Notes under the pieces: generated by a model | Told to the model about the DNA's origin: nothing | The model's database searches: none | The model's input: only the letters and a program-made list of their open reading frames with translations | Program-made: the position numbers and the translations under genes | Assembly: GCA_019637115.1 (NCBI GenBank) | Contig: JAHBWH010000005.1 | Location: forward strand, 1 to 64,000 | DNA from: Myxococcales bacterium | GTDB lineage: Bacteria; Myxococcota_A; Polyangia; Polyangiales; Houyiibacteriaceae | Reading direction: 5' to 3' | Length of the DNA: 64,000 nt | In this document: positions 3,084 to 63,751 of the stretch, piece after piece | Position numbering within the stretch: the first letter of the stretch is position 1 | Layout of the letters: each line of letters opens with the position of its first letter

Positions 3084-4787
3084 TTGCGCGAACCTCGTCG
3101 ACGTTCGAAGTTGTGGACCGCCGTGTCTCGCTTCCTCTTGGTCCTCACGCTCCTCGTCGCGTGCACCGCCGACGACCTCGACGCCGAGCCGCCGCCGATC
3201 GCGACCCACGTCGGCGACTGGCGCGACGAGGTCATCTACCAGCTCGTCACCGACCGCTTCGCCAACGGCGACACCAGCAACGACGTGCTCGACGGGATCG
3301 GGCCGACCCCCGACGACCTCACCCGCCACCAGGGCGGCGACTGGGCCGGGGTCGTCGACCGCCTCGGCTACATCAAGACCCTCGGCGCGACCGCGATCTG
3401 GATCTCGCCGCTGGTCGCGAACGTGGACCGAACCGACACCGAGGACGGCTACCACGGCTATTGGGGCACCGACTTCACCCAGCCAAACCCTCGCTTCGGC
3501 GACCTCCGCGCGCTGCGACGCCTGGTGCGTCGCGCCCACGAGGAAGACCTGCGCGTCATCGTCGACATCGTGACGAACCACAGCGGTCGCGTCTTCTCGT
3601 ACGACCTCGACCGGAGCGGCACCATCGAGCCGAACGAGATCGAGCCGCCCTACCGCGCCGAGGGTTACGACGTGCCGCTGATCTACACGCACGAGACGCG
3701 GCTGTGGGGCGCGGACGGCGCGCCCTTCGTGCTTGGCGACGAGCACTTCCGGCGGCGCGGCCTCGGCAACCTCAACGTCTTCGAGGAGAAGATCTTCGGT
3801 GACTTCCCGACCGGCCTGCGCGACCTCGACGCGAGCCGAGGCGACATCGTCGACGCGCTCGTCGAGACCTATACGCGCTGGGTGCTCGAGACCGACGTCG
3901 ACGGCTTCCGGATCGACGTCGTCCCCCACGTCGAGGACGAGTTCTGGCCCGAGTTCGGCGCGCGGCTCCGCGCCCGCCTCGCCGCGCACGGCAAGCACCG
4001 CTTCTTGCTCCTCGGCGAGGTCTTCATGGGAGACACGTTCTCGCTCGCTCGTTACACGGGCGAGACAGGGGCGCTCGACAGCGTCTTCGACTTTCGCACG
4101 AAGTTCCTCGTCATCGACGCCGTCATCCTGGACGGCGGCCCGCCCTCGATGGCGGTCGGCCCCCTCGAGACCGAGCGCGCGGCCTACCGCCCCTTCGAGC
4201 AACCGAGCGGGATCGGCGCCTCGCCCTGGGAGGCCCGCGCCGTCATGGCCGACAACCACGACACGTGGCGCCTGCGCGGCGAGCTCGACCGGCTCGACAC
4301 CGCGAAGCTGGCGCTCCTCGTGGTACTGACGAGCGAGGGCATCCCCTGCCTCTACTACGGCACCGAGCAGGAGCTGCGCGGTCAGGGTGGAGGTGGCAGC
4401 CGCGAGCGGCTCTGGGACACAGGCTACCGCACCGACACGCCGACGTTCCGGTGGCTGCAGCACCTCATCGCCCTCCGACGCGCGCACCTGGCGCTGCAAC
4501 GCGGCACGCAGCGCGTGCGCTACGCCAGCGAGAACGACGGACGCAGCGACGAGGACGACGCGGGCATGCTGGCGTACGAGCGAGCCTTCGACGGCGAGCG
4601 CTTGCTCGTCGCCTTCAACGTCCACGCGCTGAAGGCGAGCGTCGCGGACGTCCCGACGGGGTTCCCCGTGGGCGCCGAGCTGCGCAACCTGCTCGAGCCG
4701 AACGATGCGCGCCGCTGGACGGTCCAACCCGGTGGCGTCGTCACGCTCGCGCTCGAGGCCCGCGAGCCCGTGCTGTTGGCGCGCTGA
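3084..4787 (+). CDS. GH13 alpha-amylase-family lipoprotein
   Basis: Secreted glycoside hydrolase of family 13, expected to cut or rearrange alpha-glucans (starch, glycogen, maltodextrin) at the cell envelope. The protein has 567 aa. The TTG start at 3084 follows an AAAAAGG stretch and leads into a signal peptide with lipobox LLVAC. The four GH13 regions are present in order: DIVTNH, GFRIDVV with nucleophile D278, GEVF with acid/base E312, and ADNHD with D393. The C-terminal 100 residues resemble the usual beta-sandwich domain C. The next gene is a GH1 lipoprotein on the same strand, so the two may degrade sugars together. The exact substrate cannot be read from the sequence. Confidence 0.9.
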   Translation: MREPRRRSKLWTAVSRFLLVLTLLVACTADDLDAEPPPIATHVGDWRDEVIYQLVTDRFANGDTSNDVLDGIGPTPDDLTRHQGGDWAGVVDRLGYIKTLGATAIWISPLVANVDRTDTEDGYHGYWGTDFTQPNPRFGDLRALRRLVRRAHEEDLRVIVDIVTNHSGRVFSYDLDRSGTIEPNEIEPPYRAEGYDVPLIYTHETRLWGADGAPFVLGDEHFRRRGLGNLNVFEEKIFGDFPTGLRDLDASRGDIVDALVETYTRWVLETDVDGFRIDVVPHVEDEFWPEFGARLRARLAAHGKHRFLLLGEVFMGDTFSLARYTGETGALDSVFDFRTKFLVIDAVILDGGPPSMAVGPLETERAAYRPFEQPSGIGASPWEARAVMADNHDTWRLRGELDRLDTAKLALLVVLTSEGIPCLYYGTEQELRGQGGGGSRERLWDTGYRTDTPTFRWLQHLIALRRAHLALQRGTQRVRYASENDGRSDEDDAGMLAYERAFDGERLLVAFNVHALKASVADVPTGFPVGAELRNLLEPNDARRWTVQPGGVVTLALEAREPVLLAR

Positions 4788-12997: not shown

Positions 12998-14547
12998 AGC
13001 GAGATGCACGCCCCCATGAGCCGTACGTAGTAGTCGCCCATCTCGTTCCTCCCCGGCTCGATGTCGCGGTTGTACTCGACGTCCCATTTGTCGAGGAAGC
13101 AGCCGTCGGGGAAGCGATCACAGGGGCACGTGCCCGCCTGCCAGGCCTGACCGCAGCGCTGGCGCTGCGCGATCCACTCGTTCCACCCCGTGATCGTCAC
13201 GATCGGGGTCTCGGGCGCGTCGAAGACCCGCTGGAACTGCTTGCGGAACGTGAGCCCGCGGTGCTTCGGCGTCGCCGTCCGCGTGTCGTTCATGAAGTTC
13301 TGCTGGTACGCGACCGCGACCGGGATGTGCTCGATGCGACCGTCTCGCATCGAGACGCGCTGGTTGCAGGGCCGCGAGTCCGTCGGCGAACGCTCGCAGC
13401 GCTGCATGAAGCTCCACCGAGGTCCGCTGTCGGCGAGCGCGCCCCACATGCGCCGAAGGGTGTAGCGCGCCGAGAGCTCCGACTCGCGCGCGGTGTTCAC
13501 GGGCCACTGCTCGTTCTCGGTGATGAGGATCAGCGGTCGCCCGAGGTATTCGAAGTGCATCCCCGGATAGGCCGCGAGGCGCGCGAGCATGATGTCGATC
13601 GTGAACTGATCGCCCGCTGGCACCGGCGTCGTGATCGGCACCCACGGCACGACCTTCGGCGCGCCGGGGACGGTGCTCCAGACGGCCAGGAGGCGATCGA
13701 GCGGCTCGAGGATCATCTGGAGCGTGCGATCGGCGTTGTGCCGCCAGGGGTGGTTCGTGGCGTCGATGAAGATGAAGTCGATGCCCGCGTCGCGGAGCTG
13801 CTCAGCGTGCCGCCGCAGCAGCCCATCGTTCTGGCTCAGGCAGTAATAGCCCTCGGCGGGCTCGTCCCAGTAGTGGAACGCCTCGTAGGGGCCCCAGTTC
13901 TGTCGGCCGGCGAGGACCTCGGAGATGTCGTGGATGGGTCGCGCGTTCGCGATCGGGCAATGCCACGTGCTGTAGAACATCCCGAACTGCGTCGTCGGCG
14001 GCGCGACCGGCTGGTCGACGCAGATGTATCGGCTCGTATCGCAGCGCTGGCGACCGCCGCAGTGCGAGTCGCTCGTGCACTGCACGCACAGGCCACCCTG
14101 GCAGCGAGAGCCCGACGCCGTGCCCGAGCACAAGAACCCGAACGAGCACGGGTCACGGCAGATGCCTGCGAGGCAGCGCCGGCTGCCGCTGCACTCGGCG
14201 TCCCCCGTGCACTCGGGGCGAGGGCCCGCGTCGGAGCCCGCGTCGAAGCCCGCGTCGACGCCTGCGTCGAACGACATGCCCGAGCCGCCGTCGCTCATCG
14301 GTCCGTCGCCGCCGTCGACGACGACGCCTCCGCCACCGTCGATGCCGACGATGCCTCCGCCGTCGATGGCAGGGACGGCGCCGTCGGCCCCGACCACGCC
14401 GCCTCCGTCCTGCATCACGTCCGGCCTCGGCTCGGCGTCTGCCCCGGGCGGGGTTCCGCGCGTGCGGCCGTTGGAGGCGCACGCCGCCAGCGCGGCTGCG
14501 CAGGCGAGGATCCAGATCACGCTCGTCGACGGGCGTCGGTCAAACAT
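12928..14547 (-). CDS. lipoprotein with Cys-rich module and glycosidase-like TIM barrel
   Basis: Predicted lipoprotein of 539 aa. The ATG at 14547 gives a signal peptide with lipobox LAAC; a GTG at 14583 is also possible. After a long Asp/Gly linker (about 25-105) comes a Cys-rich module (ECTGDAECSGSRRC onward, about 110-180). The catalytic-like domain begins with GMFYSTWHC and continues with HAEQLRDAGIDFIFIDATN, PLILITEN and ITGWNEWI, which suggests a TIM-barrel glycosidase of the GH99/GH71-like or DUF5010-like type. Which residues act as acids is not certain. It should act outside the cell on a polysaccharide. Confidence 0.75.
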   Translation of the reverse strand: MFDRRPSTSVIWILACAAALAACASNGRTRGTPPGADAEPRPDVMQDGGGVVGADGAVPAIDGGGIVGIDGGGGVVVDGGDGPMSDGGSGMSFDAGVDAGFDAGSDAGPRPECTGDAECSGSRRCLAGICRDPCSFGFLCSGTASGSRCQGGLCVQCTSDSHCGGRQRCDTSRYICVDQPVAPPTTQFGMFYSTWHCPIANARPIHDISEVLAGRQNWGPYEAFHYWDEPAEGYYCLSQNDGLLRRHAEQLRDAGIDFIFIDATNHPWRHNADRTLQMILEPLDRLLAVWSTVPGAPKVVPWVPITTPVPAGDQFTIDIMLARLAAYPGMHFEYLGRPLILITENEQWPVNTARESELSARYTLRRMWGALADSGPRWSFMQRCERSPTDSRPCNQRVSMRDGRIEHIPVAVAYQQNFMNDTRTATPKHRGLTFRKQFQRVFDAPETPIVTITGWNEWIAQRQRCGQAWQAGTCPCDRFPDGCFLDKWDVEYNRDIEPGRNEMGDYYVRLMGACISLYRSGASCDAAHADNLCCRAYSP

Positions 14548-24496: not shown

Positions 24497-25101
24497 GGGA
24501 GTCTCTCCACCAATGAGCCCCACACGGCTCCTACACACTCGAGCAGCTCCACCGCGGTGGCCGCCAACGCGGGTCACCCCACCAAGCAAAGCGAGGGGCG
24601 TTGTCTGTCAGATGCCCCAGGGATGTCAACGAACCCCGTCGTCAGGCCTCGCACGCTTCGGCCGGGCGGAGGAGTCCGCGCCGGGGGCAGAAGCATGCGA
24701 CGTGCCATGCGTGTCGACGTCTCCAAACCATCGACATGACGAGCTTTTGCGTTGCCTCACGCGCCCTCTTCCGGGGCGGAGGCCCGTTCGTGTCCACCGA
24801 CGAACGGCTCGTTGCGGGAAGTCACACCCGTTTTCCTCGTGATCTCGCGTCTTCGACGGACGTAAAGGATCTGACGCCGGTGCGCGGACTTGGCACGACA
24901 GGCGGATCCGAGGGAAGGCGCCGACTCCGATCAGCACCTCATTGGGCCCGTGGGGAGCGACGCCGCGCAGATCGAGACGTCGTCCGCCGACGATCTCGAG
25001 TGTGTCGAACGTGCGCTCCGGTTCCGCGTCCGGTTCTGCGGTCCAGTCGTGCACCATCCGACCCGGCTCGAATTTCCGGGCGGGTGTACTAGAGCCAACC
25101 G
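24497..25101. other. 605-bp divergent intergenic region
   Basis: It lies between the divergent genes starting at 24496 and 25102. It holds the presumed promoters of both. The only structure seen is an 8-bp inverted repeat CCGTTCGT/ACGAACGG (24784-24807). A possible TACTAG box lies at 25087-25092. Short reading frames here have no recognisable protein. Confidence 0.5.
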
Positions 25102-43847: not shown

Positions 43848-43951
43848 GACGCGCCTCTACCGCGCTCGAGGGCGTCGATCCAGCGGCCCTCGTGCCTTCA
43901 CGCTCGCGACGACGTCGACGTTGACCTTCGTCTCACTTGCGCCAGCGGCTG

Positions 43952-45397
43952 TCAGAGCCCGAAGGTCGGGAACCAGAACGCCGCGAAGAGCGCGAGCGCC
44001 GCGAGGCCCACGAGGGTGAGCGTGGTCCCCGGGACGATCATGTCCCGCGCGACGAGCTCGCCCCGCCCGTCCGCCTTCATCCCGAAGCCGAAGGCCATCG
44101 CGTTCGGCGGGGTGCTCACCGGGAGCGGCATCGCGAGCGAGCACGCGAGCGCCGCGACCACGAGGAGCGGCGCGGCGCTCACGCCCGAGAGCCCCATGAT
44201 CATCGGCGCGAGCAGGTTCGCCGCCGCGGTGTTGCTCATCACCGCCGAGAGCGCCGCCGCGAGGAGCGCGACGACGCCCACGAGCGCGAGCTCGGGCAGC
44301 CCCTCGGTGGGCAAGCGCGCGCTCGCCCAGCTCGCGAGGCCGGATTGGTCGATGGCCGCGCCGAGGGCGAGGCCGCCGCCGATGAGCAGGAGCACGTCCC
44401 ACGGGAGCGCGCGTAGCTCTGGCACCCGCAAGAGATTGCTCCCGAAGAAGAGCACCACCGGCAAGAGCGCCACCGTCCCAGGCGTGAGCCCGAGGCGGTC
44501 ACCCATCAGCCAGCCGGTGATCGTCAGCAGGAGCACGCCCACGACGAGCGCCTGCGGACCCCGGAACGGGCGCACGTCGTCGTCCTCGTCGAGCTCCACC
44601 TCCTCCACCTGTGTGGGGAAGCGGCGCGCGAGGTAGGCGAGCACGACGACGAGCAGCGCGATGAGCAGCGGGCCCGCGAGCATCATCCACGCGCCGAAGC
44701 TCGGCGCGTTCCCCTCGGCCTGGAGGTAACGCAGCATGATCGCGTTGGGCGGAGAGCCGATGGGGGTCGCGATGCCGCCGAGGTTCGCCGAGAACGCGAT
44801 TCCGAGGAGCAGCGCTTTGCGGAAGCCGTCGCCTTCGGGGACCTTCGCCAGCATCGAGCCCGCGAGCCCGAGCATGAGCGCGCAGGCCGCCGTGTTGCTC
44901 ATCCACATCGAGAGCAGCGCGGTCGTGACCATCGTCGCCAAGAGCACGCGCGTCGGCGTACGGCCCGCCCGCCGCAAGATGCCCCGCGCGAGCCGACGAT
45001 CGAGCGCCGTGCGCTCGAGGCCCGCGCTGAGCACGAAGCCACCGAGGAAGAGCAGCGTGACGTCCGAGAAGAAGGCGTTCACGAAGAGCGCCGGGCCGCG
45101 CCCTTCCGAGAGCGTCGGCGCGAGCCAGGTGAGCTCGAGCGCCAACACGAGCAGGCTCGTCACGAAGAGCGGCACCGCCTCGGTGATCCAGAGGATCGCC
45201 GCGACGAGCACGATGCCGAGCGTCACCTCGGCCGGCCGCGTCAGCCCGAGCGGCCCGGCGAGCCAGCCCTCGTTCGCGGCCACGAAGGCCAGGATGGCGA
45301 GCGAGATCCCAGGCGGCGTCCGCCACGGGAGCCGCAGCACGACCGGGACCCACTCCTTCGCGATGTCGGCTCCGGGTAACGGCACGGGCGGGAGCAT
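43952..45397 (-). CDS. SLC13 (DASS) family anion transporter
   Basis: Integral membrane protein of 481 aa, about 11-12 helices. The SLC13 motif MSNTAA is present twice (MWMSNTAACALMLG near residue 162 and VMSNTAAANLLAP near 391), preceded by a helix-hairpin containing GGIATPIGSPPNAIM in the first half and a matching PVSTPPNAMAFG in the second. This fits a Na+-coupled carrier of dicarboxylates or sulfate. Substrate not told. Confidence 0.88.
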   Translation of the reverse strand: MLPPVPLPGADIAKEWVPVVLRLPWRTPPGISLAILAFVAANEGWLAGPLGLTRPAEVTLGIVLVAAILWITEAVPLFVTSLLVLALELTWLAPTLSEGRGPALFVNAFFSDVTLLFLGGFVLSAGLERTALDRRLARGILRRAGRTPTRVLLATMVTTALLSMWMSNTAACALMLGLAGSMLAKVPEGDGFRKALLLGIAFSANLGGIATPIGSPPNAIMLRYLQAEGNAPSFGAWMMLAGPLLIALLVVVLAYLARRFPTQVEEVELDEDDDVRPFRGPQALVVGVLLLTITGWLMGDRLGLTPGTVALLPVVLFFGSNLLRVPELRALPWDVLLLIGGGLALGAAIDQSGLASWASARLPTEGLPELALVGVVALLAAALSAVMSNTAAANLLAPMIMGLSGVSAAPLLVVAALACSLAMPLPVSTPPNAMAFGFGMKADGRGELVARDMIVPGTTLTLVGLAALALFAAFWFPTFGL

Positions 45398-61967: not shown

Positions 61968-62504
61968 ATGCTTCGGCTTACGCTTCTCGTCATCCTCCTC
62001 TGCGGGTGTTACTCGGCCTACGAGTCGGACGACCCCGACCGTCCCCTCGGCCGAGACGGTGGCGTCGTCCTGATCGACGCGGGCCGCCCGGATGGCGGGC
62101 CGCCACCGCCGCCTCCGCCACCGCCGCCGCCTCCTCCACCTCCGCCCATCTGCGAGCCGAACGCGCCCGCGACGTATGACGGCGACCGATGCGCGAGGCG
62201 GACGCGGACGTGCATCGAGGACTGCCAAGCCCTCGGCGACGAGGACGCATGCATCGACGAGTGCTTGTTCGCCGATCTCCCCTGCGTCGACTGCCTCTAC
62301 GGCGAGGTGATCGCGTGCGCGGTCCCCCGCTCGCGCTGCGGTGTCGAGTGGGACGCCTTCGCCTGCTGTCGGGACACGTCGTGCCGCGGCGTCAGCCTCT
62401 TCGACTGCCTGAACGACGTCTGCTTCGATCCCGCGATCGGCCTCTTCGACTGCCTCGCGCCGGCGTTCGACGCTTGCGCCGACGCACAGGTCACCTGCTT
62501 CTGA
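61968..62504 (+). CDS. small Cys-rich lipoprotein with poly-proline linker
   Basis: Predicted lipoprotein of 178 aa. Lipobox LLCGC just after MLRLTLLVI; GGAG precedes the ATG at 61968. A 16-residue poly-Pro run is followed by a Cys-rich domain with CIEDCQALGDEDACIDECLFADLPCVDCL and CRDTSCRGVSLFDCLNDVC. Resembles the GCYL-type lipoproteins at the window start in its N-terminus only. Function unknown. Confidence 0.75.
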   Translation: MLRLTLLVILLCGCYSAYESDDPDRPLGRDGGVVLIDAGRPDGGPPPPPPPPPPPPPPPPICEPNAPATYDGDRCARRTRTCIEDCQALGDEDACIDECLFADLPCVDCLYGEVIACAVPRSRCGVEWDAFACCRDTSCRGVSLFDCLNDVCFDPAIGLFDCLAPAFDACADAQVTCF

Positions 62505-62538
62505 GCACTCGACCCGCTTCTGAGCGCCGCGACGCGAG

Positions 62539-62709
62539 GCTAGTGCCCCCAACCCGAAGTTCGTTCCGGGTATCCGCGGCCCTCGACGCGGATCTCGCTC
62601 GCCGACCTCCTCGAATAGGCTTTGGCCTGTCCAACGCCTGCGCGGCAAACGACCTCCACGCCGATCATCCACGGCAACCCGGAACGAACTTCGGGTTGGG
62701 GGCACTAGC
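62539..62709. mobile_element. candidate MITE with 33-bp terminal inverted repeats
   Basis: The left arm (62539-62571) begins GCTAGTGCCCCCAACCCGAA and is perfectly inverted at 62677-62709. A weaker match extends both arms inward by about 8 bp. The interior (about 105 bp) has no supported gene. The ends carry a TA dinucleotide in CTAG, as expected for a TA-target duplication of the Tc1/mariner/IS630 type, but the duplication itself is not proven. The right arm supplies the stop codon of the adjacent TPR gene, so it sits between two convergent genes. A large terminator is the alternative. Confidence 0.6.
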
Positions 62710-63751
62710 GCGCGCGCTGCGCCCGCCGGGCTGCCTCGAGCTGCTCGCGCGTGCGAGCCGCGAGCGGCCCGCTGGGCTCGAGCCGGAGCGCCGTCTCGAA
62801 CGAGGTGATCGCCTCGGCGTATTGGCCCTCGGCGGCGAGGAGCGAGCCGAGGAGCGCGTGCGCCGTCGCGTAGCGGGCGTCGAGCGCGATGGCCTGGCGC
62901 AGCGTCGCCTTCGCGCCGTCGGTGTCGTTCGCAGCGCGCTGAGCGAGCGCGAGCTCGCCGAGCAGCGCTGGCGTGGGCCCGCCGTGCGCTTCGATGGCGG
63001 ACCGAAGCGCCTGGACCGCCGGCTCGGGCTGCCCCGCGCGCCGCAGGCCGTGGCCGATGGCCTGCAGCGCCGCGGCGTCCTGGCCGACGAGCCGCAACGC
63101 GCGACGGAGCTCGATCGCGGCTTGGTCGTTCTGCCCGCGGCGCAAGAAGAGCAGCCCGAAGTTCGTCCGCGCGAGCCCGTCGTCCGGACGCAGGCGGACG
63201 GCGCGACGGTAGGCTTCCTCGGCGCTGGCGTCGTCTCCGGCGTCCTCCGACGCCATCGCGAGGTTCAGCCACGCCTCGCCGAAGCTCGGGTCCTCGGCGA
63301 CCGCCCGCCGCAACACCTCGACCGCCTCCCCGGCGCGCTCGACGTCCCGCAGCAGGAGGCCGAGGTTGTTCAGCGCTTCGGGGAACGCGGGGTCGATCTC
63401 GAGGGCGGCGCGGTATGCGCGCTCGGCTGCCTCGTACTCGTTGCCCAGCTCCAGCACGAGCCCGACGTTCAGGTGCGCGCGAGGGTCGCGCGGGCTCTCC
63501 TGGATGGCTTGCTCGAAGAGCTGGAACGCAGCCCGCGGGTCGCCGCTGGCGAGCGCCGCCTCTCCGCGCGCGACCAGCTCGCTCGCGGGGTGGCGCTCCG
63601 GCCGCTCGCGCACCCCCTCGTCCGGGAAGGTGACGTCGTCGTCGCCGGCGGTTCGCCCCATGTCGCTCGAGCCCGTGCCGCTCGAACCCGCGCCGCTCGG
63701 GCAGCCGCTCCAGAGCAGCGCCGCCGCCAGGAGCCATGTCGCGCGTGTCAT
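62705..63751 (-). CDS. TPR lipoprotein
   Basis: Predicted lipoprotein of 348 aa with lipobox LLWSGC, then about eight TPR-like units (for example RAAFQLFEQAIQESPRDPRAHLNVG, EAAERAYRAALEIDPAFPEALNNLG, GEAVEVLRRAVAEDPSFGEAWLNLA). TPRs organise protein complexes; partners unknown. The start overlaps the glnD-like stop by ATGA. The stop codon lies in the inverted-repeat element. Confidence 0.88.
   Translation of the reverse strand: MTRATWLLAAALLWSGCPSGAGSSGTGSSDMGRTAGDDDVTFPDEGVRERPERHPASELVARGEAALASGDPRAAFQLFEQAIQESPRDPRAHLNVGLVLELGNEYEAAERAYRAALEIDPAFPEALNNLGLLLRDVERAGEAVEVLRRAVAEDPSFGEAWLNLAMASEDAGDDASAEEAYRRAVRLRPDDGLARTNFGLLFLRRGQNDQAAIELRRALRLVGQDAAALQAIGHGLRRAGQPEPAVQALRSAIEAHGGPTPALLGELALAQRAANDTDGAKATLRQAIALDARYATAHALLGSLLAAEGQYAEAITSFETALRLEPSGPLAARTREQLEAARRAQRAR

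Follow-up and report, generated by a model that had tools for sequence, protein, structure and literature searches.

RUP of Streptococcus pneumoniae has been described together with IS630-Spn1 (Oggioni and Claverys 1999, reviewed in PMC2229807). According to the portion of that review drawn on here, RUP resembles the element studied in this work in being short, gene-free and present in about 100 copies, in forming a hairpin, in using a TA target and in having repeats that match an IS630-family IS. On the other hand, RUP belongs to an unrelated organism, has a length of 107 bp as compared with 163 bp, and has its partner IS within the same genome, whereas the matching IS elements were found here only in related genera. 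Neither CTAG nor the landing on stop codons, both of which are present here, is described in that portion of PMC2229807. The Correia/NEMIS elements of Neisseria, as treated in the same part of the review, are likewise hairpin MITEs at TA, near genes or fused with them, but they have other ends and another host organism, and RNase III processing has been proposed for them. MITEPlu5, an ERIC-like element of Photorhabdus, shares with our element a strong full-length hairpin, the TA border, IS630-like ends and many copies; it is 123 bp long with CCC-type ends, and the likeness is one of description only (PMC6267812). IS630 of Shigella sonnei and ISY100 insert at TA and duplicate it, and IS630 elements favour the TA of CTAG (PMC2170065, citing Tenzen and Ohtsubo 1991). 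Both are autonomous with a transposase gene of their own, which our element does not have.

We analysed a 64,000-nucleotide stretch of DNA, hereafter the window, in which a hairpin-forming element lies at the end of a TPR-repeat gene. It is very probably one copy of a dispersed family of non-autonomous, palindromic MITEs of the IS630 (Tc1/mariner) type. This reading is the most likely one because of the copy number, the CTAG/TA borders, and the presence in related bacteria of IS630 elements with the same end motif. A sizeable IS630-type MITE family would thus be added for the uncultured Myxococcota, for which the open-access papers searched yielded no description of such a family.

Extent and folding of the element

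A perfect 33-bp inverted repeat was found with its arms at 62539-62571 and 62677-62709. These form the outermost part of 41-nt arms (62539-62579 and 62669-62709), which are 93% complementary and lie 89 nt apart. A 21-bp core occurs at two places in the window, one in each arm, while shuffled sequences give an expectation of 0. The region 62530-62720 was predicted to fold into a single end-to-end hairpin of -145.8 kcal/mol (z = -14.8), and none of 200 shuffled sequences equalled this value.

The first-pass annotation had proposed a 171-bp element with perfect 33-bp ends. The perfection of the 33-bp arms was confirmed, but the length of 171 bp counts the borders. When an IS630-type TA duplication is assumed, the outermost bases are flanking DNA and the MITE proper comprises the 163 bp from 62543 to 62705, from GTGCCCCC to GGGGGCAC. 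This delimitation draws on the copies in the same genome, on the copy ends and on the TA-target rule of IS630 (PMC2170065). The left terminal inverted repeat (62543-62571, plus strand) is perfect over 29 bp and continues imperfectly to 62579, and the right one (62677-62705, minus strand) is perfect over 29 bp and continues imperfectly inward to 62669. Between them lies the interior (62572-62676), the diverged second half of the hairpin. In the left CTAG border (62540-62543), the C is flanking DNA, the expected TA duplication occupies 62541-62542 and the G belongs to the element; in the right one (62705-62708), the C belongs to the element, the expected TA duplication occupies 62706-62707 and the G is flanking DNA.

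In the ORF list of the window, no likely gene was present inside the 163-bp element, and the long ORFs that run across it resemble frame artefacts of the neighbouring genes, in agreement with the gene-free interior noted at first. Peptides derived from the interior had no match in Pfam. The element is flanked by an ORF on the plus strand, which ends at 62504, and by the TPR ORF on the minus strand (62705-63751).

Copies, borders and a candidate mobilizing transposase

The genome of origin (G000) is a fragmented draft of 8.88 Mb in 434 contigs with 98% completeness. It carries at least 40 alignable copies with 84-100% identity, and this number is a lower bound because only 40 of 400 candidates were scored. 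A search with the 18-bp terminal core, allowing up to two mismatches, gave 101 matches (46 + 55), and the pattern of end plus border gave 87 (43 + 44); the reversed control gave 0 in each case. Among the 100 core matches listed, 73 distinct sites were counted, 27 of them close pairs. The two-ended copies span GTGCCCCC to GGGGGCAC and are mostly 163 bp long, and several copies are located at contig ends. Multiple copies with TA borders had been named beforehand as the test for a MITE, and the 40 scored copies and dozens more ends, with CTAG or its one-step variants, bear this reading out. Related MITEs were also detected in the sister species (G001) and in three further genera of the same family (g7, g8 and g10), with a more distant relative in another family (G053). 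A plasmid collection contained no match to the element, and Rfam returned a single chance-level match to a microRNA (E = 0.07). In one copy (L196, Prado145 scaffold_2450), the loop is broken by about 90 bp of other inverted-repeat sequence, apparently a nested insertion.

C-TA-G stood directly outside the element at 29 of 68 ends, and 32 of the other 39 ends were one base away from TA. CTAG is strongly avoided in this genome (the window contains 9 occurrences, where its composition predicts 167 and a Markov estimate 63), and therefore the preference for it at the borders is strong. TTAA was absent from the window, with 27 expected. Of 24 two-ended copies, four had TA on both sides and seven had the same dinucleotide on both sides (permutation p = 0.10), the remaining three pairs being CA/CA, TG/TG and TC/TC. 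Over the 68 ends, the outer C was retained in 61, the T in 41 and the A in 49, a rough comparison, since the pattern search penalised mismatches at C and not at TA. Quick loss of CTAG after insertion, insertion into target-like sequences, faulty gap repair and assembly joins could each contribute to the unequal borders. Irregular borders were also obtained with ISY100, an IS630-family element, in vitro, in 5 of 39 cases (PMC2170065). No empty site was found among the sequences retrieved. The search for empty sites in the sister species covered the end of the TPR gene and two further loci. Owing to the divergence and rearrangement of this genome, the only one from a sister species, synteny was too broken for occupied sites to be aligned with empty ones.

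A scan of related genomes with the inner end motif revealed, in G003, two inverted copies 1.5 kb apart that enclose an intact transposase of 366 aa (NCBIfam IS630, 230.6 bits with a cut-off of 100; Pfam DDE_3). This IS has CTAG on both outer ends, and its ends are identical to those of the MITE at 28/33 and 27/33 positions. A second intact IS, in G016, was found by protein search rather than by the end motif; its transposase is 53% identical to that of the G003 element, it is bordered by CTAG, and its ends match the MITE at 25/33 and 22/33 positions. Both elements are about 1.5 kb long and occur in family-level relatives belonging to two genera. Over the 29 bases of the element itself, the four ends gave 24, 23, 21 and 18 matches, as compared with a maximum of 18 over the roughly 64,000 positions of the window. 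Two other IS630 elements matched the ends poorly (12/33 for that of G027 and 19/33 for that on contig C391 of G000), which indicates that only one clade of IS630 shares the end motif.

Neither the G000 draft nor that of G001 yielded an intact IS630 element with matching ends; a functional partner in the same genome is usual for an IS630-derived MITE, although not strictly part of the definition. We infer that this lineage has, or once had, an autonomous partner, which is either lost or absent from the drafts. The IS630 element on C391 was rejected as the mobilizer, as its gene is broken and its ends are too different (15/29). It is a broken IS630-family element of another type (L134, G000:C391:72500-73700) with the ends CTAGTGCACCGCCGTCGAGATG. 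An IS630 fragment on contig C25 of the same draft has none of the ends described here. The solitary ends on contigs C268 and C409, considered as possible autonomous elements, turned out to be one-ended remnants with no transposase. In the proposed mechanism, an IS630-type DDE transposase encoded elsewhere would bind the terminal repeats in trans, excise the element and reinsert it at a CTAG with duplication of the central TA, in the manner of cut-and-paste transposition.

The very stable hairpin lies between the convergent ORF ends at 62504 (plus strand) and 62705 (minus strand), and gene ends host many of the copies. This arrangement is what a bidirectional terminator or an RNA-processing hairpin of the two flanking genes would have, immobile and kept for its function. 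We regard this explanation as very unlikely, since dozens of copies stand beside unrelated genes with borders that are sharp at CTAG, and transposase-bearing elements have the same ends. A lone-copy terminator had been named in advance as the refuting case, and it fails on the copy number; moreover, no T-tract terminator was predicted. An individual copy may nevertheless terminate transcription as a side effect. The hairpin shape would also suit a REP/BIME-like element mobilized, with no target duplication, by an HUH (Y1) transposase such as a RAYT, for which differing dinucleotides on the two sides, as often seen here, are expected. Such an origin is highly improbable in view of the identical CTAG on both ends, the long inverted repeats, the three non-TA copies with equal dinucleotides, and the DDE transposase of the IS630 family that the matching autonomous elements carry.

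CTAG on both sides can also be read as a 4-bp duplication made by a transposase of another family, for example an IS5- or IS701-like one, and the pairs CCAG/CCAG, CTGG/CTGG and CTCG/CTCG fit such a reading. As the inner G and C do not vary, duplications of 2 bp and 4 bp are inseparable by sequence. However, the end motif sits on IS630-family elements in two genera, and searches aimed at the end motif and at IS630 did not incidentally bring up any element of the IS5 or IS701 family that shares the motif. The 4-bp reading was dropped as the default when the partner proved to be of the IS630 family, and we now consider it very unlikely.

Stop codons at the border

The stop of the TPR-repeat ORF (62705-63751, minus strand) is a TAG at 62705-62707, composed of the border TA (62706-62707) and the last base of the element, which is G on this strand (62705). 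The element thus supplies this stop, as the first-pass annotation had noted. In seven of 30 copies (L001, at the TPR gene, and L005, L006, L021, L022, L026 and L027), the border coincides precisely with the stop of a gene-like ORF; the stop at L021 is now TAA. The ortholog of the TPR gene in the sister species terminates at the same codon position, there with TGA and with no element beside it, and the ortholog for L005 ends within one codon. The genes that end at the border were therefore probably not shortened by the insertion, as judged from these comparisons. Since CTAG includes TAG and the first base of the element is G, a TAG stop is recreated on insertion and reads C-TA-G, so that the neighbouring TPR gene retains its end. 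This is a clear case in which the target CTAG together with the first base G lets a transposon land on stop codons with the protein unchanged. A statistical enrichment of stop-codon landing was considered and rejected (7/30 as compared with 1/20 background CTAG sites; Fisher p = 0.12, non-significant).

Variation of the tips and the interior

The tips and the interior were compared in an alignment of 31 copies. The interior was 93-96% identical between the MITEs of G000 and those of the sister species G001, and was conserved to the same extent in a copy of the own genome that has the other tip, whereas the outer 15 bp were about 60% identical between the two species. Sampled genes of the two genomes have about 76-83% DNA identity. 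The copy with the other tip (L115, in G000) carries G001-like tips (93% and 87%) on the shared interior. At the same locus (G000:C388, ~43920-43965), two ends of the second type stand back to back with one common CCAG border. The window itself contains a solitary end of this related tip variant, CTAGTACACCCGCCCGGAAATTCGAGCCGGGT, at 25061-25092 on the minus strand, adjoining unique sequence. About 12 solitary tips of the second type occur in the genome beside unrelated sequence, with no partner end in the flanks examined.

Both arms change jointly, with compensatory changes among 12 of 35 predicted pairs. Such a joint change is as expected if both ends are bound by one transposase, or if one arm is copied onto the other. 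The overall covariation term was close to zero (-0.09) and thus offers no separate argument for selection on an RNA structure. We also considered, as a tentative and rather unlikely proposal, that selection acts on the interior and the tips are exchangeable, so that a hairpin module would swap both tips jointly and could be used by different IS630 transposases. In this proposal, one arm would be copied onto the other during repair of the hairpin, giving the paired change of the tips, and the module may serve the host in some way. Tip switching on a conserved interior, if confirmed, would be a route for a MITE to change its transposase. The pattern of tips and interior and the decay of the borders are the aspects that deserve specialist attention.

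Other repeats were observed in the course of this work. Three regions of L079 (~2430-2560, 3354-3630 and 13465-14052) contain additional DNA repeats, for which many matches were seen in both G000 and G001 and which are possibly further repeat families. A different hairpin-like MITE was found in another family within the order (L118, G042:C147; L120, G042:C60), with paired ends about 145 bp apart and the tip CCAGTGCTCGCG-GCCGGAAGT.
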